Source: Acidobacteriota bacterium (GTDB lineage: Bacteria > Acidobacteriota > Terriglobia > Terriglobales > Acidobacteriaceae). Taken from it: a stretch of 64,000 bases of DNA. The position numbers and the translations under genes were made by a program. Where the stretch lies: contig JABBOG010000003.1 of NCBI GenBank assembly GCA_019351975.1, positions 1 to 64,000 on the forward strand, in the 5' to 3' direction. Positions 30,561 to 53,621 of this stretch are shown here, piece after piece (within the stretch, counting starts at the first letter, position 1; each line of letters starts with the position of its first letter). A model generated the notes under the pieces. It was given only the letters and a program-made list of their open reading frames with translations. It made no database searches and was not told the origin of the DNA.

Positions 30561-32579
30561 TTACAAAGCAGGATGAATACGGAAGACATGAGCGGTGGCC
30601 TCCGGCGAGAGCGCCACATAGGCCCATTGATCTTTCCAGTGGTATACCGCACCCGTAAGCAAGTCCTCAACATCGTAAGATCCGATCCACGGTAAACCGA
30701 GCGCCGGCATAGAAAGATCAAGCCACCCCGTTTGCTCGCCGCTCGGATCCAGATTGACCACGGTGAGGATCACATTGCTGTCATCGCGTGAGGATTTGGA
30801 ATAAGCCAGCAGATTGTCGTTGGAAACAGTGTGAAAGTGAAGCTTCTCATTGCGCTGTAGCGCGAGATTCTCGCGCCGAATGTGATTGAGGCTTGCAATG
30901 AGCGGTGCAATAGAGTTCGGATCAGAGCGGTCCCACTCTCGTATCTGATACTTCTCACTGTCCAGATACTCTTCGCTGGAACTCTTCCCTGTGGAGGGGG
31001 TAGCAGCGCGGCCCTCGAGCAGCTCATACGCGGGTCCGTAGATCCCATAGTTCGAGCTAAGCGTCGCAGCCAGAATCACGCGCTGCCGAAAGATGGCTCG
31101 CCGCTGCGCCAGATCCTCAACCTGAAATTGCGCATGCAGAATATCAGGGGTGTTCGGCCACACATTGGGACGAAAAAAATCCGACACTGGTGCATTACAT
31201 ATCTCCGTAAAGTAATCGACCAGCTCAGCTTTCGTATTGCGCCAGGTAAAGTAGGTATACGACTGCGTAAATCCGCCCTTCGCTAAGGCGTACATCACAT
31301 GAGGCCGCGTAAAGGCTTCTGCCAGGAATATCGTATCCGGTGCGTGTTTGAGAACTTCCGCGATACACCATTCCCAGAAGGGCAGCGCCTTGGTATGCGG
31401 GTTATCCACACGGAAGACGCGCACGCCGCGGTCAGACCAGAACTTGAAGACGCCATAGAGCGCATCCCAGAGGCCGCGCCAATCCGGCGACTCGAAGTTC
31501 AACGGATAGATGTCCTGATACTTTTTCGGCGGATTTTCCGCGTACTGGATTGTCCCGTCAGGACGATGGATGAACCAGCTGGGGTGCTCCGTCACCCAAG
31601 GATGATCTGGCGAACATTGAAACGCAATATCCAACGCAATATCGATGCTGTTCGCCGCCGCGACCTTCATCATCTGGTCGAAATCCTCAAAAGTGCCAAG
31701 CTCTGGCAGAATCGCCGTATGCCCTCCTTCGGCCGCTCCAATGGCCCACGGACTACCAACGTCCCCAGCCTTCGCAGTCACCGAATTGTTCGGACCCTTG
31801 CGGTACGCTACACCAATCGGATGGATCGGTGGCATATACAACACATCGAAGCCCATCCCCGCAATCTCCGGGATCCGGTCAGCAACGTCGCGCAACGTAC
31901 CGTGCTGTCCTGCAACCGCCGAAGCGGAGCGCGGAAAAAGCTCGTACCAGCTCGAGAAGACTGCGCGCTCGCGGTCAACCCAAATACTCAGCTCAGGGGT
32001 ATGCTTCGTGGAAAAGCTGAGATCGGGGTACTTTGCAACCAGCGCCACAAGTTCATCCTGAATGGGCGAATCATAAAACGACAAGTTGGAATCAGCTAAT
32101 GCGCGAAACTTCGTTGCGGCAAGGTTGAGCTTTTTTGCATCCGCACCTTTTGCTCGCGAAGCCGCCGCATCTACATGGTTCGCTCCGATCCGCAACGCCA
32201 GCGGAATATCCTGCGATGATTCCGCCTGAGCCGCAAGACGCTTCGCCAGATCGTGCGTCCACGTGTCAAAGTGATCAACCCACGCTTCGATCGTGAAGCT
32301 CCACGCGCCAAGTTTATCGGTCTCGTTAGGTTCACCGAGCGACAGCGTAGCCGCCCACATATCATTGGGCAGCTCCGTAAAGTTTGCAGTCTGCCACTTC
32401 CGCTGCGATGCGTGGCGATACAGCAGCCGCGCCGCAACATGATCGTGGCCGTCACCGAAGATCGCTGCCGTAATCTCCACGGAATCGCCGAGCACGCATT
32501 TGATCGGATATCGCCCACAGTTTACCGACGGCCTTACATGCTCGATGACGATTCTTTTGCGCCCTTCAATAGGTTTCAT
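30561..32579 (-). CDS. glgE: Alpha-1,4-glucan:maltose-1-phosphate maltosyltransferase
   Basis: GH13_3 enzyme that adds maltose units from maltose-1-phosphate to alpha-1,4-glucan. The 672 residues show the N-terminal sandwich domain (EHVRPSVNCGRYPIKCVLGD) and the GH13 barrel. Key marks are MPPIHPIG, CSPDHPW with the donor-site loop, the nucleophile Asp in FRVDNPHTKALPFW (about residue 391), acid Glu in FLAEAFTRP (about 420) and SNYGIYGPAYELLEG. The ATG at 32579 has AGGAG at 11 bases. It is divergent from the GH15 gene. It works with the TreS-maltokinase gene at 48044. Confidence 0.95.
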   Translation of the reverse strand: MKPIEGRKRIVIEHVRPSVNCGRYPIKCVLGDSVEITAAIFGDGHDHVAARLLYRHASQRKWQTANFTELPNDMWAATLSLGEPNETDKLGAWSFTIEAWVDHFDTWTHDLAKRLAAQAESSQDIPLALRIGANHVDAAASRAKGADAKKLNLAATKFRALADSNLSFYDSPIQDELVALVAKYPDLSFSTKHTPELSIWVDRERAVFSSWYELFPRSASAVAGQHGTLRDVADRIPEIAGMGFDVLYMPPIHPIGVAYRKGPNNSVTAKAGDVGSPWAIGAAEGGHTAILPELGTFEDFDQMMKVAAANSIDIALDIAFQCSPDHPWVTEHPSWFIHRPDGTIQYAENPPKKYQDIYPLNFESPDWRGLWDALYGVFKFWSDRGVRVFRVDNPHTKALPFWEWCIAEVLKHAPDTIFLAEAFTRPHVMYALAKGGFTQSYTYFTWRNTKAELVDYFTEICNAPVSDFFRPNVWPNTPDILHAQFQVEDLAQRRAIFRQRVILAATLSSNYGIYGPAYELLEGRAATPSTGKSSSEEYLDSEKYQIREWDRSDPNSIAPLIASLNHIRRENLALQRNEKLHFHTVSNDNLLAYSKSSRDDSNVILTVVNLDPSGEQTGWLDLSMPALGLPWIGSYDVEDLLTGAVYHWKDQWAYVALSPEATAHVFRIHPAL

Positions 32580-32788
32580 TCGCTCCACGTCTCCTGTTTA
32601 TTTTGATGCATCCGTACATCCACCCTGCTGATCATAACTGCTGCCACAATGTGATGCGTCATCAGAAGGCACGGTGCAATCTGTGCCTCTCTGTTCCGGT
32701 ATGTCATACCATCCTCTATCTGCATCCAAGGGAATGGATAACCAAATACCCGCTAGTTCATACTGAGCGCAGGTTGCTGGAGGACACA

Positions 32789-34615
32789 TTGCCTGAACGG
32801 TTTGCTAAGAAAAAGAGAGTGCCGCTTCACGCAGCACGTATTGAAGATTATGCAGTCATCGGCGACTGCGAGACAGCCGCCCTCGTCAGTCGCGACGGCT
32901 CCATGGACTGGCTCTGCTGGCCGAACTTTGCGTCTCCAGCATGCTTTGCTGCACTCTTGGGCGCTGCGGAAAACGGCTATTGGCAGATTCGTCCATCGTC
33001 CAAAATCATCGAGACTCGCAGGCGCTATGAACCCGGAACGATGATCGTAGAAACCACCTTCGTCACGAAAGATGGTGAAGTTTGCCTGGTTGACTTTATG
33101 CCTCCGCGCGGAAAACACTCTGATGTCGTGCGCATCGCACGTGGGGTTCGCGGCAAAGTTAAGATGCACATGGATCTCGTGCTGCGCTTCGACTACGGCC
33201 TCACAGTCCCTTGGGTGACAAAAGAAAAAGAGGAGATCCGTGCGATCGCGGGGCCGAATATGGTTGTGCTTCGCAGCCAGTGCATGCGCGGCAAACCCGC
33301 TGAGCTGGCGGGCGAAGAGATGAAGACTGTGAGCGACTTTATCCTCCGCGAGGACGACCAGGTATGCTTTACCCTCACGTACGCCGGATCCACTGAAGAA
33401 CTTCCCGCAGCAATCCAGGTAGAACAGGCTCTCCAGGACACTCGCGATTACTGGTGTGAATGGACTGCACGCTCCTCGTATAAGGGGCCCTATGGAGAGA
33501 CCGTTCAACGCAGCCTCATGACGTTGAAGGCCCTTACCTATCGACCCACCGGTGGTGTCGTTGCCGCAGTGACAGCAGGTCTACCCGAAGGTATCGGCGG
33601 AGAGCGCAACTGGGACTATCGCTATTGCTGGTTACGCGATACATCGTTCACCCTCATGGTATTGATCGCAGCCGGTTACACAACCGAGGCCGTGCGCTGG
33701 CGTGCATGGCTGCTTCGCGCCATCGCTGGCTCACCCACTCAAATCCAAAGCCTCTACGGAATCCAGGGCGAGCGTACCCTGGTCGAATGGAACGCAGATT
33801 GGCTTGCCGGTTACGAACACTCCCTTCCTGTCAGAATTGGCAACGCCGCATCCAAACAGTTCCAACTCGATGTGTACGGCGAGGTCTCGGTCGCTCTCAA
33901 TCACATGCCCGACGCGCAGGATGATTCGAGGGCGCCCGCGATCGAACTTGAAGCGAAACTCATCGACCATCTCTGCGATATTTGGCAGATGCCTGATGAG
34001 GGAATCTGGGAGACTCGCGGCGGCGCAAAACACTTCGTCTACAGCAAAGTCATGGCATGGGTTGCTCTGGATCAGGCTGTCAAGCGGCACGAAGCGTTCG
34101 ATGGTACAGGTAACGTTAAGCTCTGGCGAAAAAATAGAGATATGCTGCATAAACAGATTTGCGCCAAGGGCTTCAGCAAGCGCCTCAACTCCTTCACGCA
34201 AAGCTACGGCTCGAAAAATCTGGACGCCTCGTGTCTGCGGCTACTCCTCGTCGGCTTTCTCCCCGCAGACGATCCTCGCATGATTGGAACAGTAGAAGCG
34301 ATTCAGAAACATCTCACGAAAGATGGTCTCGTGCAACGCTATGACACTGCCAAAAGTTCCGACGGTCTCAAGGGAGACGAGGGGACATTCCTCGCCTGTA
34401 GCTTCTGGATGGTAAGTTGTCTGTGGCTTATAGGCCGAAGGGCGCAGGCGGTTGAAATGTTCGATAAGCTACTGGGGTTGTGCAACGACGTAGGTCTCCT
34501 CAGCGAGGAGTACGATCCAAAAGCGAAGCGCATGCTAGGGAACTTCCCTCAAGCTCTATCACATATTGCACTGCTGCACGCAGCATTCACGCTTTCAGCT
34601 ACAGACATGAAGTAA
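32789..34615 (+). CDS. GH15 family glycoside hydrolase (glucoamylase/trehalase-like)
   Basis: About 608 residues. The start is a TTG with TGGAGG five bases before it; no ATG has a comparable site. Family marks are the N-terminal IEDYAVIGDCETAALVSRDGSMDWLCWPNF region, GGERNWDYRYCWLRDTSFTLMVL near residue 270-290 (catalytic-site tryptophan and arginine), and GIWETRGGAKHFVYSKVMAW near 405-425 with the general acid Glu in the pair of catalytic glutamates. There is no signal peptide, so it acts in the cytoplasm on alpha-glucan or trehalose. Placed between glgE and treY, it probably degrades the same glucan. Confidence 0.87.
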   Translation: MPERFAKKKRVPLHAARIEDYAVIGDCETAALVSRDGSMDWLCWPNFASPACFAALLGAAENGYWQIRPSSKIIETRRRYEPGTMIVETTFVTKDGEVCLVDFMPPRGKHSDVVRIARGVRGKVKMHMDLVLRFDYGLTVPWVTKEKEEIRAIAGPNMVVLRSQCMRGKPAELAGEEMKTVSDFILREDDQVCFTLTYAGSTEELPAAIQVEQALQDTRDYWCEWTARSSYKGPYGETVQRSLMTLKALTYRPTGGVVAAVTAGLPEGIGGERNWDYRYCWLRDTSFTLMVLIAAGYTTEAVRWRAWLLRAIAGSPTQIQSLYGIQGERTLVEWNADWLAGYEHSLPVRIGNAASKQFQLDVYGEVSVALNHMPDAQDDSRAPAIELEAKLIDHLCDIWQMPDEGIWETRGGAKHFVYSKVMAWVALDQAVKRHEAFDGTGNVKLWRKNRDMLHKQICAKGFSKRLNSFTQSYGSKNLDASCLRLLLVGFLPADDPRMIGTVEAIQKHLTKDGLVQRYDTAKSSDGLKGDEGTFLACSFWMVSCLWLIGRRAQAVEMFDKLLGLCNDVGLLSEEYDPKAKRMLGNFPQALSHIALLHAAFTLSATDMK

Positions 34616-34743
34616 CTCGGTTACCATAATCCACAAACGCGATTGCAGGCGGGGGATGCAACCCCACGCTTGCTGCGTGTGTCTACTCAGGCACACCTGT
34701 CAGAAACTCTGGCGAACCCAATGACATCAGAAAGAGGCTTGGC

Positions 34744-37416
34744 ATGGCGCGTGTACCCGGATCGACCTACCGCATTCAACTCCACAAACACTTTACATTC
34801 GACGATGCTGCCGACATCGCCGAATACCTCAAGACCCTGGGTCTGACGCACATCTACAGCTCCCCCTACCTGCAAGCCGCGCCCGACAGCATGCACGGTT
34901 ACGATGTCGTAGACCACCGCAAAGTTAACGAAGAGCTCGGCGGAGCCGCAGCGCACGAACGCTTTTGCAAGACGCTCGGCGATGCCGGTCTGGGCCAGAT
35001 TCTCGACATCGTTCCCAACCATATGAGCCTCGGTTCACAGAACAAATATTGGTGGGATGTATTGGAAAATGGCACTAACAGCCGATACGCCAGCTTCTTC
35101 GATATCGATTGGAACTCCTCGGAAGAGCGTCTCCGCGACAAAGTACTCGTGCCAATATTGGCAGATCAATACGGCCGAGTTCTCAGCGACGGAGGCGTCA
35201 AACTTTCTCGACAGGGCGCTATGTTTACAGTCGAAGCCGCTGGTCAAACCTTCCCTGTATCACCGTCCAGCCTATGCGTCATTCTGGGTAAAGCCGCCGA
35301 GTATGCCAAGAGCGATACTCTCAATTTCCTCAGCTCCAGCTTTGCACGCCTGCCATCACCTGACTTCTGGGACCGCCGAACCATTCTCGCCCGTCATCGC
35401 GACAAAAATGTACTGCACGGACTTCTCGAACGGCTTTGCTCTGAAGAAAATAACGTATGTTCTTCCATTGACCGCGTAGTGCGTGAAGTCAACTCAAACG
35501 TGGATGCTTTGGATGAGTTTCTTTCTCAGCAATACTATCGACTCTCCTATTGGAAGACCGCGGACCAACAACTCGGTTACCGGCGTTTCTTCGATGTAAA
35601 CACGCTCATCGGCCTTCGCGTAGAGCGTGAATTCGTCTTTGATGAGACGCACGCTCTCATCGTCAGATGGCTGAAACAAGGCGTTCTCGACGGCGTACGC
35701 GTTGACCACCCCGATGGTCTACGCGATCCCAAACAGTATCTCGACCGGCTGCGCGAGCGCGCTCCGAATGCTTGGATCGTAGGAGAAAAAATCCTGGAGC
35801 CTGGCGAGTGGTTGAGAGACGATTGGCCCATCGAGGGCACCACCGGCTACGACTTTCTAAATGTCGCGATGGGTGTTCTCGTCGATCGTGACGGACTCAA
35901 ACGTCTCGGCGAGCACTACATCGCATTCACAGGAGATAATGCCGCGTTCTCAAGCGTCGCACACGATAAAAAAATTGCAGTCACACAAGAAGCGCTTGGC
36001 AGCGACGTCAATCGACTCACCAGCCTATTCGTAGACATCTGCGAAAATAACCGTGACCAGCGTGACTTCACGCGTGCCGAGATTCGCCGCGCGATTCGAG
36101 AGTTAGCCGCCTGCTTCTCTATCTATCGGACCTATGTCATTCCGGAGCAAAACGCCATTAATGACGAAGATCGCAGTCGCATCACGAGTGCGATTGAATG
36201 CGCCAAGTCCAGCCGCACGGATATCGACGGCGGCCTATTTGACTTTATCCGCGATGTTCTAACGTTGAAGTGCACTGGAACAAACGAGACCGAATTCGTA
36301 AATCGATTTCAACAGTTCACCGGCCCGGTCATGGCAAAGGGTGTCGAAGACACAGCCTTTTACTGCTGGAACAGGCTCATCGCAATGAATGAAGTAGGTG
36401 CGGATCCAGAGTGCGGTGGATTTACCCTGGAATATTTTCACAACTACCAATCGCACGTCCAAAAGACGTTTCCACTTACGATGACGTCGCTAGGGACACA
36501 CGATACAAAGCGCAGTGATGACGTACGCGCGCGCATGATCGTGCTAAGCGAGATACCCGATGATTTCGCCGAAGCTGCAGGACGCTGGAGCGCACTCAAC
36601 GCAACGTACGAAAGCGCCGACCTCATTGACCCCGGCACAAAGTGGTTCCTCTATCAAACCCTCGTTGGCGCATGGCCCATCACAACCGATCGTCTAAAAC
36701 TCTATATGCAGAAAGCGATGCGCGAAGCAAAGGTGCGAACCAGTTGGGTCTCGAACAATGAGGACTATGAGAACGCGCTGAACGACTATATCGACGGCAT
36801 GCTTTCAGACGCTACATTTGTGGCTGACATCGAGGCGTTTATCGCTGGAATCTCCCTCGCTGGTCGTGTGAACTCTCTCTCGCAGACACTTCTGAAATAC
36901 ACATCTCCCGGTGTTCCCGATCTTTATCAAGGCGGTGAACTGTGGGATCTTTCACTCGTGGATCCAGATAATCGTCGGCCGGTAGATTATCGGTTACGCA
37001 AGAAGTTACTCCATGAGCTAGAAACAATGGACCTAATCCAGATCATGGCTCGCAGCGACGATGGCCTGCCGAAGCTATGGTTAATCCACCGCGCAATGCA
37101 GCTTCGTAACGAACATCCCTCCTGGTTTGGAAAGGAAGCTTCTTACATTGCGGTGAAAGCGCAAGGCCAACAGAGCGAACGTGTGCTCGCGTATCTTCGC
37201 GGAGAGGATGTGCTGACCGTTGTACCGCGATACTCCCAACGCGCATCTGCATGGGAAGATACCGCAATCGAGATTCCCAACGGACGATGGAGAGATCAAC
37301 TCTCAGGCCTGGAGTTCGACGGCGGCCAGCTACGCCTTGAAACTCTCTTAGAACTATTTCCCGTAGCACTGCTCTTCAGAAGAACGAATGAAGTGGAGGA
37401 GACCCCAAATGCATGA
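34744..37416 (+). CDS. treY: Maltooligosyl trehalose synthase TreY
   Basis: GH13 enzyme that turns the reducing end of a maltodextrin into a trehalosyl unit. The 890-residue length is normal. The N-terminus VPGSTYRIQLHKHFTFDDA, PSPGSTHGYDV-like SPYLQAAPDSMHGYDVVDH, ILDIVPNHM, DGVRVDHPDGLRDP (nucleophile Asp near residue 320) and WIVGEKILEPGE (acid Glu near 348) are clear. The end overlaps the start of treZ by eight bases, a tight operon. Codons are more A/T-ending than in the TreS region. Confidence 0.95.
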   Translation: MARVPGSTYRIQLHKHFTFDDAADIAEYLKTLGLTHIYSSPYLQAAPDSMHGYDVVDHRKVNEELGGAAAHERFCKTLGDAGLGQILDIVPNHMSLGSQNKYWWDVLENGTNSRYASFFDIDWNSSEERLRDKVLVPILADQYGRVLSDGGVKLSRQGAMFTVEAAGQTFPVSPSSLCVILGKAAEYAKSDTLNFLSSSFARLPSPDFWDRRTILARHRDKNVLHGLLERLCSEENNVCSSIDRVVREVNSNVDALDEFLSQQYYRLSYWKTADQQLGYRRFFDVNTLIGLRVEREFVFDETHALIVRWLKQGVLDGVRVDHPDGLRDPKQYLDRLRERAPNAWIVGEKILEPGEWLRDDWPIEGTTGYDFLNVAMGVLVDRDGLKRLGEHYIAFTGDNAAFSSVAHDKKIAVTQEALGSDVNRLTSLFVDICENNRDQRDFTRAEIRRAIRELAACFSIYRTYVIPEQNAINDEDRSRITSAIECAKSSRTDIDGGLFDFIRDVLTLKCTGTNETEFVNRFQQFTGPVMAKGVEDTAFYCWNRLIAMNEVGADPECGGFTLEYFHNYQSHVQKTFPLTMTSLGTHDTKRSDDVRARMIVLSEIPDDFAEAAGRWSALNATYESADLIDPGTKWFLYQTLVGAWPITTDRLKLYMQKAMREAKVRTSWVSNNEDYENALNDYIDGMLSDATFVADIEAFIAGISLAGRVNSLSQTLLKYTSPGVPDLYQGGELWDLSLVDPDNRRPVDYRLRKKLLHELETMDLIQIMARSDDGLPKLWLIHRAMQLRNEHPSWFGKEASYIAVKAQGQQSERVLAYLRGEDVLTVVPRYSQRASAWEDTAIEIPNGRWRDQLSGLEFDGGQLRLETLLELFPVALLFRRTNEVEETPNA

Positions 37417-39157
37417 TTTTAACCTCTGGGCACCCAAGGCAAAAAAAGTCCAACTACAGTCCGGTGGCAATAATTATCCGATGACAGGACCAGACGAAAC
37501 TGGAACGTGGCATCTAGAAATGCCTGAGGCGACATGCGGACTTGACTACGCCTATTTACTTGACGATGACCCAACAGCGTATCCCGATCCAAGAAGCATG
37601 TGCCAGCCCAATGACGTGCATGGATGCTCTCGCCTCTACGATCAAAGTCTATTTTGCTGGAGCGATCAAAAATGGCAGGCCCCGCCCTTGGCTGCTGCGG
37701 TAATCTACGAGCTGCACATCGGAACATTTAGCCAGGAAGGAACGTTTGATGGAGCGATCAATCATCTGGATCACTTAGCACAACTAGGGATTACGCACAT
37801 CGAAGTCATGCCCATCGCCGATTGGGCCGGTGACCGCGGCTGGGGTTACGACGGCGTTGCACTCTTTGCAGTCTCCGACAGCTACGGCGGCCCAGATGGC
37901 TTCAAACGATTCGTGGACGCATGTCACGCGAAGGATATGGCAGTGATTTTGGACGTAGTTTATAACCACTTTGGTCCGGTTGGAAACTACACGACAAAGT
38001 TCGGCCCTTACCTCACCGAAAAGCATAAGACACCTTGGGGCGCTGCAGTGAATTTTGAAGAAGGCGGCAGTGACCAGGTGCGTCGCTTCTTCTGCGACAA
38101 CGCCCAGATGTGGCTACGTGACTATCACGTAGACGGCCTCCGATTGGACGCTGTGCATGAATTTATCGACCGTTCAGCAATCAATTTCATGGAACAATTA
38201 TCCTCGGAAGTAGAAAGGCTAAGTACAAATCTAGGGCGAAAACTTGTATTGATCGCAGAGAGTGATCTAAATGATCCCAAGGTCGTAAGACCCCGTGAAG
38301 CAGGCGGCTATGGAATGGACGCTCAGTGGAGCGATGACTTCCACCACTCACTTTTTTCACTGTTATACAAAGGCAATCCAGCCACGGGATACTACGGAGA
38401 CTTCGGTAAAGTTCAAGATCTCGCTAAAGCTTTGAAGCACGTATTCGTCTACGACGGAGGCTATTCAAAGTATCGATTACACTCGCACGGCCGTCCCGTA
38501 GAAGGACTCTCTGCTCAACATTTCATATGCTTTATTCAGAATCACGATCAGATCGGGAACAGAGCGAAAGGTGAACGCCTCGAACATCTTGTTGGTCTCG
38601 ATGCAGCAAAGGTAGCTTTAGGACTTACGCTCATGGCTCCATTCATTCCAATGCTGTTTATGGGTGAAGAATTTGCCTCTTCCAGCCCATTCCTCTACTT
38701 CGCGTTTCACAACGAAGAGAAGATGGCCAAGCTCATCTCCGAAGGTAGAAGGAAAGAGTTCGCGGCTTTCGGATTCGAAGATCAAGAGATCCCCGATCCG
38801 GCAGACATGAGCACCTTTGAAAATTCGAAATTAAAATGGGGTGAGGTTCATGAAGGTGATCATGCCCATATGCTCGACTGGACGCAAAAGCTGATAGCAC
38901 TCCGTCGTTCAACCAACGCCCTGAATGATGGTGACATTCACCACATGCACGTCGAGTACGACGCTGACAAACGCTGGCTCACCATGCAGCGAGGCCCCAT
39001 AACGACCATCATCAACATCGGCGAAGCGGAAGTAACATTGCCGCTCAACGGAAGTGCAGCGGTCATCCTTCGCTCGCGCGCCGAAGTGGAGATCCGTGGA
39101 GACTCCATCACACTCGCTCCGATGAGTTTGGCAGTCTTGAACTCGGAGGAGAAGTAG
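37409..39157 (+). CDS. treZ: Maltooligosyl trehalose trehalohydrolase TreZ
   Basis: Releases trehalose from the maltooligosyl-trehalose made by TreY. The 582 residues begin with an N-terminal CBM48-like domain (MHDFNLWAPKAKKVQL), then the barrel: YELHIGTFSQEGTFDGAI, DVVYNHFGPVGNY, the nucleophile Asp in DGLRLDAVHE (about residue 247), acid Glu in LIAESDLND (about 281) and FIQNHDQIGNR. GTGGAGGAG precedes the ATG. The gene overlaps treY, and a NUDIX gene follows after 47 bases. Confidence 0.95.
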   Translation: MHDFNLWAPKAKKVQLQSGGNNYPMTGPDETGTWHLEMPEATCGLDYAYLLDDDPTAYPDPRSMCQPNDVHGCSRLYDQSLFCWSDQKWQAPPLAAAVIYELHIGTFSQEGTFDGAINHLDHLAQLGITHIEVMPIADWAGDRGWGYDGVALFAVSDSYGGPDGFKRFVDACHAKDMAVILDVVYNHFGPVGNYTTKFGPYLTEKHKTPWGAAVNFEEGGSDQVRRFFCDNAQMWLRDYHVDGLRLDAVHEFIDRSAINFMEQLSSEVERLSTNLGRKLVLIAESDLNDPKVVRPREAGGYGMDAQWSDDFHHSLFSLLYKGNPATGYYGDFGKVQDLAKALKHVFVYDGGYSKYRLHSHGRPVEGLSAQHFICFIQNHDQIGNRAKGERLEHLVGLDAAKVALGLTLMAPFIPMLFMGEEFASSSPFLYFAFHNEEKMAKLISEGRRKEFAAFGFEDQEIPDPADMSTFENSKLKWGEVHEGDHAHMLDWTQKLIALRRSTNALNDGDIHHMHVEYDADKRWLTMQRGPITTIINIGEAEVTLPLNGSAAVILRSRAEVEIRGDSITLAPMSLAVLNSEEK

Positions 39158-46687: not shown

Positions 46688-46750
46688 TCACCTGGAACGC
46701 CGTTGCAGTCACCTCGAACGCCGTTGCAGTCACCTGGAACCCCGTTGCAG
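46688..46750. repeat. Three tandem copies of a 21 bp unit upstream of the MscS gene
   Basis: TCACCTGGAACGCCGTTGCAG is followed by two copies with one substitution each. It sits 27 bases before the MscS-type start codon. Confidence 0.9.
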
Positions 46751-46777
46751 CCATTTCTCGGAAAGAGAGTTTTGCCT

Positions 46778-47872
46778 ATGAAGATGATGTACGAACATCA
46801 TCAATGGTTTTTCGTGATCTTCCTGTTCTGCGGCGCTCTCTTTGCCGCCAACGTCCTCCACTTCGTGCTCTTTCGCCTGCTCAAACGCAAAGCCGTCGCC
46901 GACAACGAAACCAGTTGGGGCATCCAGCAATACCTCGGCAAGCCGGCACGCGCCATCTTCCTGATGACCTGCATCCTCATCGCCCTGCCCTTCGTTCCAG
47001 AAGTCTCTCCCGACATCCTCTACGACATACGCCACGCCACAGCAATGCTGATGGTGGCCGCCCTCGGCTGGTTTGCCGTGGGCTGTGTCTACGTCACGCA
47101 GAATGTCATGCTGCGCAAATACGACCTCAACGTCGCCGACAATCGGCGCGCGCGCGGCGTCCACACACAGTTCCAGGTCTTCCGCAGAATCGCCATCGCC
47201 TTCGTCATCGTCATCACCTTTGGCGCACTCCTGTGGACCTTCAACGACCCCCAGATCTGGCACTACGGCAGCGGCCTCCTTGCCTCTGCCGGAATCGCTT
47301 CACTCATTCTCGCCTCCGCCGCAAAGACAACAGCGTCCAACTTCCTCGCCGGAATGCAGATCGCACTCACCGAACCCATCCGCATCGACGATGTCGTCGT
47401 CGTCGCCGGCGAGTGGGCCCGAGTCGAAGAGATCACATCCGCCTACGTCGTCCTCAAGATCTGGGACCTGCGCCGCCTCATCGTCCCACTCAGCTGGTTC
47501 ATCGAGAATCCCTTCGCCAACTGGACGCGCGACAGCGCAAACATCCTCACCTACTCCTACCTCTATCTCGACTACGAAGTGCCCGTCAAAGAAATGCGCC
47601 CGTACTTCGAGAAGCTCGTCAAAGACTCCGGCATGTGGGACAAAGTTGCTCTCGCCATGCAGGTCACAAATCTCACCCCCCAGGCCATGGAAGTACGTTG
47701 CCTCATGAGCGCGGCAGACTCCAGCACCGCCTTCAACCTCCAGTGCCTCGTACGCGAGGAGATGATGGACTGGGTTCGCGAACACTACCCCAGGGCTTTT
47801 CCCAACATGCGTTATCGCGCCATGTCCGACAACATTCCCCAGACACCGAATCCTCCCCCTCAGCCCGTCTAA
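46778..47872 (+). CDS. Small-conductance mechanosensitive channel, MscS family
   Basis: 364 residues with three or four helices before a MscS core. The pore-lining region GIASLILASAAKTTASNFLAGMQIALTEPIRIDD near residues 170-205 has the Ala/Gly pattern and the I..D end typical of MscS helix 3 and the beta domain. The ATG at 46778 was chosen after GAAAGAGAG; the upstream in-frame extension is encoded by the 21 bp repeats and is not likely to be protein. It stands before the trehalose synthase gene, matching an osmotic role: letting solutes out on down-shock. Confidence 0.88.
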   Translation: MKMMYEHHQWFFVIFLFCGALFAANVLHFVLFRLLKRKAVADNETSWGIQQYLGKPARAIFLMTCILIALPFVPEVSPDILYDIRHATAMLMVAALGWFAVGCVYVTQNVMLRKYDLNVADNRRARGVHTQFQVFRRIAIAFVIVITFGALLWTFNDPQIWHYGSGLLASAGIASLILASAAKTTASNFLAGMQIALTEPIRIDDVVVVAGEWARVEEITSAYVVLKIWDLRRLIVPLSWFIENPFANWTRDSANILTYSYLYLDYEVPVKEMRPYFEKLVKDSGMWDKVALAMQVTNLTPQAMEVRCLMSAADSSTAFNLQCLVREEMMDWVREHYPRAFPNMRYRAMSDNIPQTPNPPPQPV

Positions 47873-48043
47873 TTCACCCGATCCCCAACCCCTATTGCGT
47901 ATACTTCCGTCAGTATGAACAACAACCGCCCGCACCGCTCGTCACGCTTCGCATCTACGTTCCACCCATAACGTTACAAATTGCCTGCTCCACGAACATC
48001 GTCGCCCAAAACCGCATCCAACCAACCGGAGACCCACCCGCAC

Positions 48044-51000
48044 GTGAAGAAGCCCTGCAGCGCCACCGACCCCCTCTGGTACAAAGATGCCATCATCTAC
48101 GAGATCCACGTCCGCGCCTTCGCAGACTCCAACGCCGACGGCATCGGCGACTTTCAGGGCCTCATCTCCAAGCTCGACTACCTCCAGGAGCTCGGCGTCA
48201 CCTGCCTCTGGCTCCTTCCCTTCTTCCCCTCTCCCCTCCGCGACGACGGCTACGACATCTCCAACTACACCGACGTCAATCCCTCCTACGGCACCATCGC
48301 CGACTTCCAGCAGTTCCTCGACGAAGCCCATGCCCGCAACCTCCAGGTCATGATCGAGCTCGTCATCAACCACACCTCCGACCAGCACCCCTGGTTCCAG
48401 CGCGCCCGCCTCGCCCCCAAAGGCTCGCCCGACCGCAACATGTACGTCTGGTCCGACTCCGACAAGCTCTACGACGGCGTCCGCATCATCTTCACCGACA
48501 CCGAAAAGTCCAACTGGACCTGGGACGAAGTCGCCCAGCAGTACTACTGGCACCGCTTCTTCGCCCACCAGCCCGATCTCAACTTCGACAATCCCCGCGT
48601 CATGGAGGAAGTCCTCAACGCCATGCGCTTCTGGATGGACATGGGCGTTGACGGCCTCCGCCTCGATGCCATCCCCTACCTCATCGAGCGCGACGGTACC
48701 TCCTGCGAGAACGTCCCCGAGACCCACGTCAAGATCAAGCAGATCCGCGCCGCCATCGACGCCGAGTACGAAAACCGCCTCGTCCTCGCCGAAGCCAACA
48801 TGTGGCCCGCCGACGTTCGCCCCTACTTCGGCGAAGGCGACGAGTGCAACATGGCCTTCCACTTCCCCCTCATGCCCCGCATCTACATGGCGCTGCGTCA
48901 GGAAGACCGCCTCCCCATCACCGACATCATGGCCCAGACCCCGGCCATCCCCGACAACTGCCAGTGGGGTCTCTTCCTCCGCAACCACGACGAGCTCACC
49001 CTCGAAATGGTCACCGACGACGAACGCGACTACATGAACCTCGCCTACGCCGCCGACACCCGCATGCGCATCAACGTCGGCATCCGTCGCCGCCTCGCGC
49101 CCCTGATGGACAACAACCGCCGCCGCATCGAGCTCCTCAACTCCCTTCTCCTCAGCTTCCCCGGCACCCCCATCATGTACTACGGCGACGAAATCGGCAT
49201 GGGCGACAACATCTACCTCGGCGACCGCAACGGCGTCCGCACCCCCATGCAGTGGAACTCCGACCGCAACGCCGGATTCTCCAAAGCCGTCCCCGCCAAG
49301 CTCTACTTCCCCGTCATCATGGATCCCATCTGGGGCTATCAGGCCATCAACGTCGAAGCCCAGCAGTCAGACGCTTCCTCGCTCCTCCACTGGACCCGCA
49401 ACATGATCGCCCTCCGCAAGATCTTCCAGGTCTTCGGCCGCGGCTCGCTCGAATTCCTCCATCCCGACAACCGCAAAGTCCTCGCCTACATCCGCGACTA
49501 CACCGGCGACGACGGCCACACCGAGACCATCCTCTGCGTCGCCAACCTCTCCCGCTTCGCCCAGCCCGCCCAGCTCGACCTCAGCAAGTACGCCGGCCGC
49601 CAGCCCGTCGAGATGCTCGGCTACGTCCCCTTCCCGCCCATCGACAAGACCCCTTACGCCATCACGCTCGCCCCCTACAGTTTCTTCTGGCTGGAGCTCC
49701 AACCCGCCGACAGCTCCTCCGCTCCGCTCTCCGCGCAGAGCCGCACAGCCGCCTCCGGCCCTCAGACCATCACCACCATGCTCAACGAATCCGGCCTCCA
49801 GCTCTTCAGCTCCCTGCTCCCCGACTACATCGCCAAACAACGCTGGTTCGGCGGCAAGTCCCAGACCATCCGCTCCACGCGCATCCTCTCCACCATCCCC
49901 ATCGACGACGCATCCGTCATCGCCATCGTAGAAGTCTCCTACGAACAAGCCGCTATCGATCTCTACCAGATTCCCCTCGGTATCGCCTCAAAGGACCAGG
50001 CCGCGCTCCTCCAGACCTCCGCACCCCGCTCCATCATCGCCACCATCGACCGCGACAGCCAGGAGATCGTCCTCTTCGACGCATCCGCGAGCACCACCTT
50101 TCAGTCCGCGCTCCTCCAGCGCATCATCAACGCACCCGACAGCAAAGACACCACCGCACCTCCACCCGAAGCCGCCTCCTTCAAAGCCGCATCCGCAGCC
50201 GAGCACACTATCGCCACATCCTCCGACCTCGCCGCAACGCAATCCCTCGCTCTCGACCCCAAACGCTTCGAGGACGTTCCCTCGCGCCTCAGCTCCGCCG
50301 AGCAGTCCAACACCAGCATCCTCTACGACGATCTCGGCATCCTCAAGCTCTTCCGCCATCTCACCCTCGGCGAAAATCCCGACGTCGAAATCACTCGCTT
50401 CCTCACCGAAGTCGCTCACTTCGAGCACATCCCCGCCTACCTCGGCGACCTCCACCGTCCCTCCGACGGCACCACCCTCGCCTTCCTCCAGACCTTCGCT
50501 CCCAACCAGGGCGATGGCTGGGCCTGGACCCTCACCGAGCTCTCCCGCTTCTACGACGCCGTCGCCACCTGCCCTCCGCCGTCCACCCTCGGCCATCCGC
50601 CCAGCTTCACCGCACCCGCACCCGCCGCCGCCGACATCCTCCAGCACGCCAGCGGCTACCTCGCCGCCGCCGAACTCATCGGTCAGCGCACCGCCGAGTT
50701 GCACCTCGCTCTCGCCACCCCCACCGACGACGCCGCATTCCGCGCCGAAGCCTACACCGCCGAAGCCCTTGCCTCCGACCGCCAGCGCATCACCCAGCAG
50801 GTCACCTCCGCACTCGACGCCCTCCAGCGCAGCCTTCCCACCGTTCCACCCGAAACATCCCCCCTCGCCGCCGACCTCCTCACGCAGCGCGCCTCCATCC
50901 TTGGCCGCATCCAGTCCCTCAACGGCGATTCCGCCCTCTTCGGCCAGCGCATCCGCATCCACGGCGACTACCACCTCGGCCAGCTTCTCCGCACCTCATC

Positions 51001-51481
51001 CAAAACCCAGCCCGACTTCCTCATCGTCGACTTCGAAGGCGAACCAGCGCGCTCCCTCGACGAGCGCCGCCAGAAGCAATCCCCCCTTCGCGACGTCGCC
51101 GGTATGCTCCGCAGCTTCAGCTACGCCTCCCGCTCCGCCCTCCAGTCCACATCTGCCCGCACTGCCGCCAACGCAGCCTCGCTCGACGCCTGGGCCACAG
51201 CCTGGGAAAACGCCGCCGGCAACGCCTTCCTGCGGGGCTACCGCGCCGCCGCAGCCGCCAATCCCTCACTCCTTCCCCAGCCTGCGGCCTCCCAAGCCGC
51301 CCTTCTCGCGCTCCTTGTCGAAAAAGCCTCCTACGAACTCCTGTACGAGTTAAACAATCGTCCAACCTGGCTCGTCATACCTCTTACCGGGCTGCTCGCT
51401 ATTGCCCACGCAAATACCGCAGACGAAATGCAGCTCCCATCGCGGTGGCATACTCTCTATCAGGTACCATCATCCACATAG
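48044..51481 (+). CDS. treS: Trehalose synthase-maltokinase fusion (TreS-Mak)
   Basis: 1145 residues. The first 550 form a GH13 trehalose synthase that interconverts trehalose and maltose: [18 protein letters not shown], the nucleophile Asp in [10 protein letters not shown] (near residue 208), acid Glu in VLAEANMWP (near 249), and NHDELTLEM. From about residue 585 ([20 protein letters not shown]) the rest is a maltokinase with the kinase loop [10 protein letters not shown] near 972 and [15 protein letters not shown] after it. The fusion makes maltose-1-phosphate, the substrate of GlgE. The start is GTG at 48044; an upstream TTG is also open. A low-complexity Ala/Ser linker of about 30 residues separates the domains. 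Confidence 0.95.
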
Positions 51482-51551: not shown

Positions 51552-52784
51552 ATGGCATCCACACCCCTCACTGACGCCGCCTCGCCCGACCTCCAGCCGG
51601 TCCCTGCACCCGTGACCCATCCGGTCGCCGAGCTCGCCATCTGCCTTCCAGCCTTCTCCGCGGAAGCCCTTCCCTCCGCGCTCGAAGCCATCACCACCGC
51701 TTTTCCCGGCGAATCCGTGCTCATCGCCTCCTCTGTCCTCCCGCCCACACCCACCGACTGGCCCACCCTCGAACTCGTTCCCTATACCAGCCCGCGCTCC
51801 GACCTCAACTGGGTCCTCACCGCATCCGACTACGCCGCAGCCGCGCGTCTCGCCGCCGATCACAACACCCGCGCCGTTCTCATCCTCGGTGATCCGGAAT
51901 CCCCCCTCGACGCCCCCATGCTCCGCCGCCTCGCCGACGGCATCCGTGGCACCAGCGTTGACCTCATCCTTCCCCGCTTCTCTCTCGGCCCAACAAACGC
52001 GCTCGTCAACACCGCCCTGCTTTATCCCCTCTCCCGCGCTCTCTTCGGTGCCGACATCCGCTTCCCGCTCCCCGTCGATGCCGCCATCTCCGCCCGCATG
52101 GCGCAGCGCCTTCTTCCCTCCACCCAGCGCCTCGTCTCCCTCAACCAGGGTTCAACCATCCTCTGGCCGGTCGCCGAAGCTGCCATCGCCGGATATTCCG
52201 TACGCGAAATCTCCGCAGGCGACGCACTTCCGCCCACCCCGCCCAGCGAAGACTTCAATACCCTCTTCAGCAGCGTCGCCGGCTCACTCTTCGCCGACAT
52301 CGACGCCAAGGCCACCTTCTGGCAGCGCGCTCGCAACCTTCCCCTCCGTCCGCCCGCACCCACCGAACCCGCCCCGCTCGACCCTCTCGAAGCAACCCCC
52401 GATGTCCTCTCCATGATCGAGAGCTTCCACCTTGCACAGAACAACCTCCAGGAGATCTGGTCGCTCGTCCTTCCGCCCCAGTCCCGCCTCGCACTCAAAA
52501 AGCTCTCCCAGCTCGCGCCCGACGCCTTCACCATGGAACCCGACCTGTGGGCACGCATCGTCTACGACTTCACCCTCGCCTTCCATCTCCGCACCCTCAA
52601 CCGCAACCACCTGCTCGGAGCCATGACGCCCCTCTACCTCGCCTGGGCTGCCTCCTACCTACGCTCCGTCGCTGACCGCCCCGACCGCGCCGCGCATGCC
52701 ATCGAACGCAACGCAACCGCCTTCGAGTCCGAAAAGTCCTACATCGTCTCCCGCTGGCGATGGCCAGACCGCTTCAATCCCTAG
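51552..52784 (+). CDS. Retaining glycosyltransferase-like protein (GT-A, glucosyl- or mannosylglycerate synthase-like)
   Basis: 410 residues, cytoplasmic. No exact family is certain. VDLILPRFS near residue 138, followed by LLYPLSRALFGADIRFPLPVDAAISARMAQRLL, resembles the acceptor/substrate-binding core of GT81 or GT78 enzymes, in which a sugar nucleotide is used to make glucosyl- or mannosyl-glycerate. The metal site expected as DxD near VLILGDPESPLD reads GDPE, so it is degenerate. The C-terminal third is helical and ends in WRWPDRF. It follows the TreS-Mak gene after 70 bases and precedes a mechanosensitive-type membrane protein by 69 bases. Confidence 0.55.
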   Translation: MASTPLTDAASPDLQPVPAPVTHPVAELAICLPAFSAEALPSALEAITTAFPGESVLIASSVLPPTPTDWPTLELVPYTSPRSDLNWVLTASDYAAAARLAADHNTRAVLILGDPESPLDAPMLRRLADGIRGTSVDLILPRFSLGPTNALVNTALLYPLSRALFGADIRFPLPVDAAISARMAQRLLPSTQRLVSLNQGSTILWPVAEAAIAGYSVREISAGDALPPTPPSEDFNTLFSSVAGSLFADIDAKATFWQRARNLPLRPPAPTEPAPLDPLEATPDVLSMIESFHLAQNNLQEIWSLVLPPQSRLALKKLSQLAPDAFTMEPDLWARIVYDFTLAFHLRTLNRNHLLGAMTPLYLAWAASYLRSVADRPDRAAHAIERNATAFESEKSYIVSRWRWPDRFNP

Positions 52785-52853
52785 CCAGCCGCTGCGCCGC
52801 GCTGCACATCCGGCACCTCGCCTTACGCCGCATCGAACCTCAGGAAGGAAACC

Positions 52854-53621
52854 ATGGGACAACAAATCGAATCCGCGCTTCGCCAATCCATCCACCGCAT
52901 CGTCCTCGTCCTCGCCAGCTTTCTTCCCGGCGTCCTTGCCTTTCTCTTCGCGCTGGTCGTCTTTCTCCTCATCGGCTGGGGGCTCTCTGCCCTCGTCCGC
53001 CAAATCCTCACCGCCCTCCGCTTCGACGAACGCCTCGCCTCCCGCGAGTCTCCCGGCTCTCCCGTCCTCGTCGCCGACTGGTCCAGCTCCAACTCCCCCA
53101 CCCTCGTCGCCTCCCGCATCACCTTCTGGATCTGCGTCCTCGCCGGCGTCGCCGTCGGCATCTCCGCATTCGACGCCTCCTACTCCGTCGACTCGCAGTA
53201 CTCCATCTTCCTTCTCCCCTACTTCGCGCACCTCACCGGTGCCATCCTTATCCTCATCGCCGGCAGCCTGCTCGCCCGCTTCCTCGCCCGCTCTGTCCTC
53301 ATCGGCGCAGTCAACGCGCAACTTCAGTACGCCCGCTTCCTCTCCCTCGGCGTCAAGTGGCTCGTCCTCGTTCTCACCGCCGCCATGGCGCTTGATCACC
53401 TCAACATCGGCGGTGGCGTTGTAGAGCTCGCCTTCGGCATCCTCTTCGGCGGCATCGTCCTCACCTTGTCCCTCGCCATCGGCCTCGGCTCACGCGACCT
53501 CGTCAGCCGCTCCATCGAAAAATCCTTCGACAAAGCCACCGATCGCCCCACCCCACCCACCGAAATCAGACCCCTCACCGAGTCCGACCCACCCCCGCGC
53601 CCACGCCTTCGCCACTTCTAA
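52854..53621 (+). CDS. Membrane protein with conserved TM helices, mechanosensitive-channel related
   Basis: 255 residues with about five hydrophobic helices (near 18-45, 88-108, 118-145, 160-180 and 190-213). The pattern LNIGGGVVELAFGILFGGIVLTLSLAIGLGSRDLVSR is like the conserved TM-helix/YggB-related proteins that are related to mechanosensitive channels but lack the cytoplasmic cage. AAGGAAA stands before the ATG. It closes the MscS/TreS/glycosyltransferase cluster and could sense membrane tension or turgor. Substrate and activity are unknown. Confidence 0.7.
   Translation: MGQQIESALRQSIHRIVLVLASFLPGVLAFLFALVVFLLIGWGLSALVRQILTALRFDERLASRESPGSPVLVADWSSSNSPTLVASRITFWICVLAGVAVGISAFDASYSVDSQYSIFLLPYFAHLTGAILILIAGSLLARFLARSVLIGAVNAQLQYARFLSLGVKWLVLVLTAAMALDHLNIGGGVVELAFGILFGGIVLTLSLAIGLGSRDLVSRSIEKSFDKATDRPTPPTEIRPLTESDPPPRPRLRHF

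Follow-up and report, generated by a model that had tools for sequence, protein, structure and literature searches.

In the archaeon Thermoproteus tenax, the msc-gt-tpsp operon encodes a fused trehalose enzyme that requires a GT4-like glycosyltransferase (GT) protein for synthase activity. According to PMC3634074, this GT protein has no synthase activity alone and activates the synthase by complex formation, as concluded from assays and the yeast two-hybrid method; the MSC protein resembles the transmembrane (TM) region of MscS, and the authors call the msc-gt-tpsp organization unique to Thermoproteus and Pyrobaculum. In Mycobacterium smegmatis, trehalose synthase (TreS) and a maltokinase form the TreS:Pep2 complex, in which the kinase rate is enhanced (PMC6509496, abstract). 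Here, we analyzed a stretch of 64,000 nucleotides from an Acidobacteriota bacterium of the family Acidobacteriaceae (assembly GCA_019351975.1, contig JABBOG010000003.1, positions 1 to 64,000 of the forward strand), referred to as the window. A sequence-only reading of it had placed genes for a 410-residue GT and a five-helix membrane protein directly behind a gene for a fusion of TreS with maltokinase (Mak), and open reading frames for proteins of 410 and 255 residues are indeed found there. That reading had proposed a unit for solute synthesis and release. We consider it probable, with some reserve, that the 410-residue protein is instead a non-catalytic pseudo-GT subunit of TreS-Mak that is paired with an MscS-transmembrane-type protein.

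Fold, kinship and active-site motifs of the 410-residue protein

The structure of the 410-residue protein was predicted by AlphaFold2 from an alignment of 79 window-type sequences (A6), which omitted two of 80 loci, L241 because of its bad start and L210 because it nearly duplicates L203. The resulting model (pLDDT, 90.4; pTM, 0.87) retrieved mannosylglycerate synthase (MGS) at all of the ranks 1 to 8 in a Foldseek search (E value, 1.9e-8). VIA-align matched it to MGS with a Z score of 25.3 over 323 residues (model residues 28 to 400; rmsd, 4.3; ~12% identity), compared with Z scores of 13.8 for MpgS and 13.4 for GpgS, the latter over 215 residues. Because of these scores, the predicted fold is taken to be of the MGS type, C-terminal helical domain included.

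Direct sequence searches were less informative. The 410-residue protein matched no Pfam or NCBIfam family; in particular, there was no match to PF21969 (MGS_GT) at E values up to 1 and none to NF010496 (glucosyl-3-phosphoglycerate synthase; cut-off, 262 bits). Nothing meaningful was found among the sequences of solved structures in the Protein Data Bank (PDB), and a profile of window-type proteins retrieved nothing useful from it. The kinship was established through intermediates and structure. NTP_transf_3 gave weak matches to 11 of the 27 window-type members (best E value, 0.0026), which were taken to reflect a shared Rossmann-like fold, and identity with this family was rejected.

The intermediates were relatives with intact motifs, 21 of the 44 of which formed a profile (alignment A5) that matched GpgS (E value, 1.7e-12), MGS (about 5e-9), and MpgS (1.1e-5) in the PDB. 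When the intact relatives were aligned to GpgS, the PGKG loop, the DxD motif, the acceptor Thr region, the QP(I/L)GG block, and the metal His were all paired; PMC2581804 describes what these residues do in GpgS and MGS. At E values up to 0.01, all 21 of 21 intact relatives matched NF010496 (L092, 49.2 bits, cut-off 262), and PF21969 (cut-off, 27) scored 28.6 bits in L109 and 24.6 bits in L105. The kinship to GT81 and GT78 claimed by the sequence-only reading, as well as the match to GT-A structures, was thus recovered with the model and the intact relatives, although the profile search that it had proposed gave no family when made directly with the 410-residue protein. Two distant homologues that sit between TreS and a PF05552 protein, L022 and L023, retain a recognizable GT-A start (PF00535, 21.0 and 24.4 bits; cut-off, 23.3).

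Of 61 near relatives, 23 encode a homologue of the 410-residue protein, as do 109 of 200 family genomes; the protein or an intact relative was found in 245 of 398 family genomes sampled, representing 44 of 79 genera (window genome counted in each case). A phylum-wide sample of 297 genomes yielded relatives in 80 when searched with a profile of L021 to L023. Four records named Rhodanobacteraceae, Limisphaerales, or Verrucomicrobia (L198, L232, L235, and L247) carry the locus at 46 to 48% identity and are probably mislabelled bins. Two of the intact relatives have 622 residues (L109:6427-8295 and L106:626-2494); that of L109 has a C-terminal TrkA_N domain (71.8 bits), which may indicate a tie to potassium or osmotic control, and L039, a counterpart of L106, looks alike in the alignment.

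We then compared the active-site motifs in 101 loci, i.e., the window and 100 fetched neighbourhoods, which were chosen as about one or more per genus and do not comprise all matches. TreS or Mak lies beside the GT in 56 of these loci, the window included, and is absent beside it in 45. GKG is retained in 0/56 linked versus 44/45 unlinked proteins. The corresponding values for linked proteins are 2/56 for DxD (L113 and L141), 1/56 each for TIT and GG, and 7/56 for the metal His, against 44/45 unlinked proteins for each of these motifs. The Asp of the DGG loop is less discriminating, since it is retained in 24/56 linked as well as 45/45 unlinked copies. The sole unlinked exception, L190 (genome G161), belongs to the degenerate lineage, and its genome encodes TreS-Mak on another contig; intact, unlinked GTs also occur in the window's own family (L144 and L168). 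In the alignment with intact relatives, the window protein has GDP in place of DAD and Pro in place of the metal His, and the PGK loop, DxD, acceptor Thr, and metal His of these relatives are absent from it. GDPE thus stands at the DxD position, as the sequence-only reading had noticed. The acceptor-side block that it considered to be kept falls in the expected part of the alignment, yet other residues stand in place of TIT and GG. With changes in the motifs for donor, metal, and acceptor alike, the proposed solute synthesis by this protein is not upheld. Motif loss is graded: it is partial in L104, L112, and L113 and complete in the window type.

Sequence constraint differs correspondingly between the two types. 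Mean pairwise identities in the nucleotide half (residues 11 to 137 of the 410-residue protein), the acceptor half (138 to 249), and the C-terminal domain (270 to 397) are 44.6, 57.7, and 29.9%, respectively, for the 44 intact proteins and 24.0, 40.7, and 53.5% for 42 window-type proteins. In the window type, constraint has shifted toward the helical domain at the C terminus, and its most conserved residues are found in the C-terminal half. The window protein fills 49 of the columns with at least 95% conservation among intact proteins and keeps the residue in 14 of these. At the C-terminal RWRWPDRFNP, two alignments of 27 rows (A4, 26 degenerate proteins and the window) and 79 rows (window included) each show nine of the 10 positions as either invariant or conserved to at least 90%. 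The gene is under purifying selection: the ratio of nonsynonymous to synonymous substitution rates (dN/dS) is 0.13 to 0.40 in the eight closest pairs (dS < 0.4), with a median of 0.38 over 552 pairs (dS, 0.05 to 1.2). Some distant pairs gave values approaching 1 (the highest of the 40 pairs listed being 1.02); they were not used, and their dS is probably underestimated. The wide distribution of homologues and the low dN/dS of close pairs indicate that the open reading frame is more than a product of chance.

Linkage to TreS and the membrane protein

In the window, the genes for TreS-Mak, the 410-residue protein, and the 255-residue protein are arranged head to tail on the same strand, with gaps of 70 and 69 bases. 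This three-gene order, TreS-GT-TM, recurs widely. Among the 101 loci, a strict script found TreS directly upstream in 55 and the TM gene downstream in 55/55 of those; L121 was missed by the script (overlapping frames). A second set, consisting of the best 80 of 215 relatives (the named loci, partly from the same genomes as the 100 fetched loci), had TreS upstream in 69, the TM gene downstream in 77, and both in 67. The 11 named loci without TreS upstream are L234, L262, L192, and eight loci from Edaphobacter, Granulicella, or other Acidobacteriaceae. L192 was scored as lacking TreS and TM (overlapping frames), yet the TM gene is present and tblastn shows Mak. In 8/8 of the remaining genomes, one of which (L202) appears to be G161, TreS of 65 to 74% identity is encoded elsewhere; seven of these matches span TreS and Mak, and that of Edaphobacter modestus covers query residues 22 to 669. 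GT and TM genes remain together where TreS is elsewhere. In E. modestus, TreS remnants of up to 82% identity (L197:5517-5875) lie at the old site beside the pseudo-GT and TM genes, and a TreS is encoded elsewhere in that genome. An HAD-like phosphatase seems, by eye, to come after the GT-TM pair in G032 (L022:3-464).

The sequence-only reading had counted an MscS gene upstream of TreS-Mak as a fourth member of the unit. This four-gene unit was rejected. Apart from the window, neither the 100 fetched nor the 80 named loci (overlapping sets) contained an MscS match with an E value of <1e-8; 53 and 57 of them, respectively, showed at least 1.5 kb upstream of TreS, and tblastn at 1e-3 found none in the seven nearest loci. 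The MscS gene is therefore regarded as a local neighbour; it is the order of the other three genes that is conserved.

The link of the 410-residue protein with TreS-Mak proposed by the sequence-only reading is borne out by co-occurrence. In the 200 family genomes, the GT was found in 109, TreS (E value up to 1e-100) in 127, and both in 107. The two genomes with the GT and without TreS are G365, which has an intact GT (L144), and G402, in which the GT is a fragment at a contig start; the motif state was read for fetched loci only. TreS occurs without the GT in 20 genomes, 19 of which have a TreS that is just 47 to 53% identical to that of the window, and in the remaining one, G389, the contig ends within the TreS-Mak frame. 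In G152, GT and TreS lie 1.7 Mb apart.

A natural fusion connects the two proteins directly. In G495 (L280:1644-4760), TreS (residues 31 to 589) and the pseudo-GT (609 to 1039) form one open frame of 1,039 residues; the TM gene follows, and a Mak match is on another contig. The linker region scanned has no ATG, and TTG and GTG codons occur in it. In G539, which is 77% identical to G495 over the aligned part and shows in-frame differences in the linker, the frame runs from TreS into the GT until the contig end. Since the fusion is seen in two species of one genus, a sequencing error is unlikely. TreS and GT are separate in G518 and G466, because there is one TAG within the match. Fusions of this type are commonly taken as evidence of partnership.

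The 255-residue protein contains five hydrophobic segments and matches PF05552 in two stretches (28.1 bits; cut-off, 22), in agreement with the relation to mechanosensitive channels that had been noted from the sequence. There was no match to PF00924, the MscS beta domain, at E values up to 1, and the score for NF033912 (mechanosensitive ion channel) was 51.9 bits, below the cut-off of 100. The final residues H254 and F255 are invariant in 65 rows, namely, the window and the 64 of 76 extracted proteins that form alignment A7. The PF05552 partner is also found beside intact GTs without TreS in 12/44 loci (11 by a stricter script), so that the pairing of GT and TM probably predates the link to TreS.

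The features of the locus are compiled in the table below. The fusion protein scored 916.9 bits for its TreS part (TIGR02456; cut-off, 678) and 443.3 bits for its Mak part (TIGR02457; cut-off, 375), and TreS-Mak motifs, which we presume to have their usual catalytic meaning, are present. GlgE, a GH15 trehalase-like gene, TreY, and TreZ are grouped at 30561-39157, and GlgC is likewise in the window. With TreS-Mak, these genes constitute a trehalose/alpha-glucan island, which sets the locus in trehalose and alpha-glucan metabolism. In the window genome (~95% complete), one GlgE and one TreS over the cut-off were found. A promoter and terminator scan gave no signal clearly above that of shuffled sequences.

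Table. Positions of the features discussed, numbered from the first nucleotide of the window
Feature	Position	Strand	Basis
TreS-Mak fusion, 1,166 residues, start codon TTG	47981..51481	+	TIGR02456, TIGR02457
Putative pseudo-GT, 410 residues, predicted MGS fold without active-site motifs	51552..52784	+	Model, alignment
Codons for GDP (residues 113-115), aligned with the DxD metal motif of intact relatives	51888..51896	+	101-homologue alignment
Codons of C-terminal RWRWPDRFNP, hallmark of the window-type lineage	52752..52781	+	Two alignments
Membrane protein, 255 residues, five-segment MscS-transmembrane type (PF05552), conserved C-terminal HF	52854..53621	+	
MscS-like gene, immediately upstream of TreS-Mak	46703-47872		PF00924, 40.4 bits
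GlgE	30561-32588	minus	

A candidate subunit of TreS-Mak and its alternatives

As judged from its motifs, the probably non-catalytic nature of the 410-residue protein is well supported, its partnership with TreS is moderately supported, and a coupling to membrane tension may be considered by analogy. We infer the following course of events. (i) The ancestor would have been a GT-A enzyme of the mannosyl- or glucosylglycerate synthase type, whose active site was lost after its gene had joined TreS. (ii) The pseudo-GT would be held in a TreS(-Mak) complex, physically formed in the window organism, through its conserved helical C-terminal domain. There it would regulate the trehalose enzyme and not simply anchor it. 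(iii) The PF05552 protein, as the older partner of the GT, would tether this complex to the membrane or report the state of the membrane. (iv) The interconversion of trehalose and maltose, and the alpha-glucan flow via Mak and GlgE, would follow osmotic conditions. In a more specific version, which we regard as possible but doubtful, the pseudo-GT bridges TreS-Mak and the cage-less MscS-type protein, and membrane tension sets the balance between trehalose retention and the route via maltose 1-phosphate and GlgE to alpha-glucan. If true, this switch would have arisen by convergence as the GT-A-based equivalent, in bacteria, of the archaeal TPSP-GT-MSC system and would point to a recurring design.

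A number of observations weigh against a non-catalytic subunit of TreS-Mak. (i) Active GT-A enzymes without DxD are known, and the alignment of the nucleotide half is poor in the window type, which makes single motif columns in this half uncertain. (ii) A clade of 12 TreS-linked proteins mostly retains the nucleotide loops, with SPES, SPDS, or similar at the DxD position; since these motifs are mostly kept, nucleotide binding may survive in this clade. (iii) A GT tree calculated by a quick method with SH-aLRT values groups the 44 intact proteins (support 88, below star) and needs two label changes, and therefore fits one gain of the TreS linkage and its loss in L190. Because the linkage has one origin on the tree, its correlation with motif loss rests on one evolutionary event and shared descent; a test of independent pairs had no power with 2 pairs. 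(iv) In L234 and L262, the sequence covered contains no TreS and no Mak. (v) TreS does not generally need the pseudo-GT, since 19 of the 200 family genomes have TreS-Mak of 47 to 53% identity and no protein of the 410-residue type, and G423 has TreS (56%) together with an intact, unlinked GT (L168). (vi) Fusions are rare, with 1 among 109 carriers and a second in the same genus only. (vii) The model of the 255-residue protein is weak (pLDDT, 80.4; pTM, 0.56), and its match to MscS (2oau; probability, 0.89; 89 columns; E value, 3.0) is not significant, so that tension sensing is unsupported.

The first alternative, which appears unlikely to us, is that the 410-residue protein is a non-catalytic sensor of a metabolite or nucleotide-sugar that acts on the membrane protein, TreS being co-regulated and no physical partner. 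The apparently greater age of the GT-TM pair (12/44 intact GTs with TM and without TreS), its persistence where TreS is elsewhere, and the VGxPTxN and ADGGSRD motifs that are mostly kept by the 12 TreS-linked proteins are in its favour, whereas the co-occurrence with TreS, the fusion of TreS and GT found in two species of a single genus, and the loss of the nucleotide loops in the window type argue for the subunit. It is improbable that the protein is a GT of altered chemistry (metal-independent, with another donor or acceptor) and uses trehalose, maltose, or maltose 1-phosphate to make an osmolyte. Metal-independent GT-A enzymes do exist, and the confidently predicted fold, purifying selection, and the osmolyte/alpha-glucan setting are compatible with it. 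However, such an enzyme is difficult to reconcile with a nucleotide half of 24% mean identity, with the loss of the acceptor Thr and GG and, in 49/56 linked proteins, of the metal His, and with a distribution of conservation in which the C-terminal half stands out.

The remaining two alternatives have very little to commend them. A working glucosyl- or mannosylglycerate synthase with a solute-release channel, to which we assign a very low probability, would agree with the remote kinship to GpgS and MGS and with the adjoining MscS-like transmembrane protein; the changed active-site motifs of window-type proteins, on which GpgS or MGS identity was rejected, the lack of conservation of the upstream MscS gene, and a TM protein without a PF00924 match contradict it. 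That the gene is a decaying relic without function, as its graded motif loss might suggest, is hardly credible in view of open frames in nearly all copies, the dN/dS of 0.13 to 0.40 in the closest pairs, and the strongly conserved C-terminal motif.

With a non-catalytic subunit of TreS-Mak as the favoured reading, the locus has wider implications. A GT fold apparently now serves a trehalose enzyme as a non-catalytic partner, and neighbouring lineages contain intact relatives, partial intermediates, and a natural fusion. The label "glycosyltransferase" on the 410-residue family need not imply a solute-making enzyme. The link of bacterial trehalose metabolism to the osmotic state is poorly known, and this locus offers a widespread, testable example.

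Comparison with described systems

With the MGS of Rhodothermus marinus (GT78; PDB 2bo4, 2bo7, and 2y4m), the 410-residue protein shares the predicted fold, including the C-terminal helical domain; it differs in sequence (~12% identity) and in the absence of the DxD, metal His, PGK loop, and acceptor Thr of that enzyme. The likeness to GpgS (GT81; PDB 7p5l and 3e25) concerns the GT-A domain and the profile match of intact relatives, whereas the fold match is weaker and the active-site motifs are lost in the window protein. As to TreS:Pep2, the two enzymes are separate chains in M. smegmatis, and the abstract of that study names no third, GT-like subunit. No earlier report of a bacterial TreS-GT-TM arrangement was among the matches listed in a search of titles and abstract starts of open-licence PMC articles. 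The sequence-only reading knew of no description of its proposed unit; a comparable gene set has been described in T. tenax (PMC3634074).

The closest known system is msc-gt-tpsp of T. tenax. In both cases, a fused trehalose enzyme, a GT-like protein, and a protein resembling the transmembrane region of MscS are encoded in one cluster. The differences are that (i) the trehalose enzyme is TPS/TPP in T. tenax and TreS-Mak in the window; (ii) the GT is described there as GT4-like, with a GT-B fold, and is GT78-like, of GT-A type, in the window, a comparison of descriptions and not of sequences; and (iii) one system is archaeal and the other acidobacterial, with another gene order. For a complex-based activation like that reported in T. 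tenax, the support on the acidobacterial side is genomic, namely, the natural TreS-GT fusion. The likeness is one of design and says nothing for a common origin. Taken together, T. tenax and the window suggest that the combination of a trehalose enzyme, a GT-like subunit, and an MscS-type membrane protein arose more than once.

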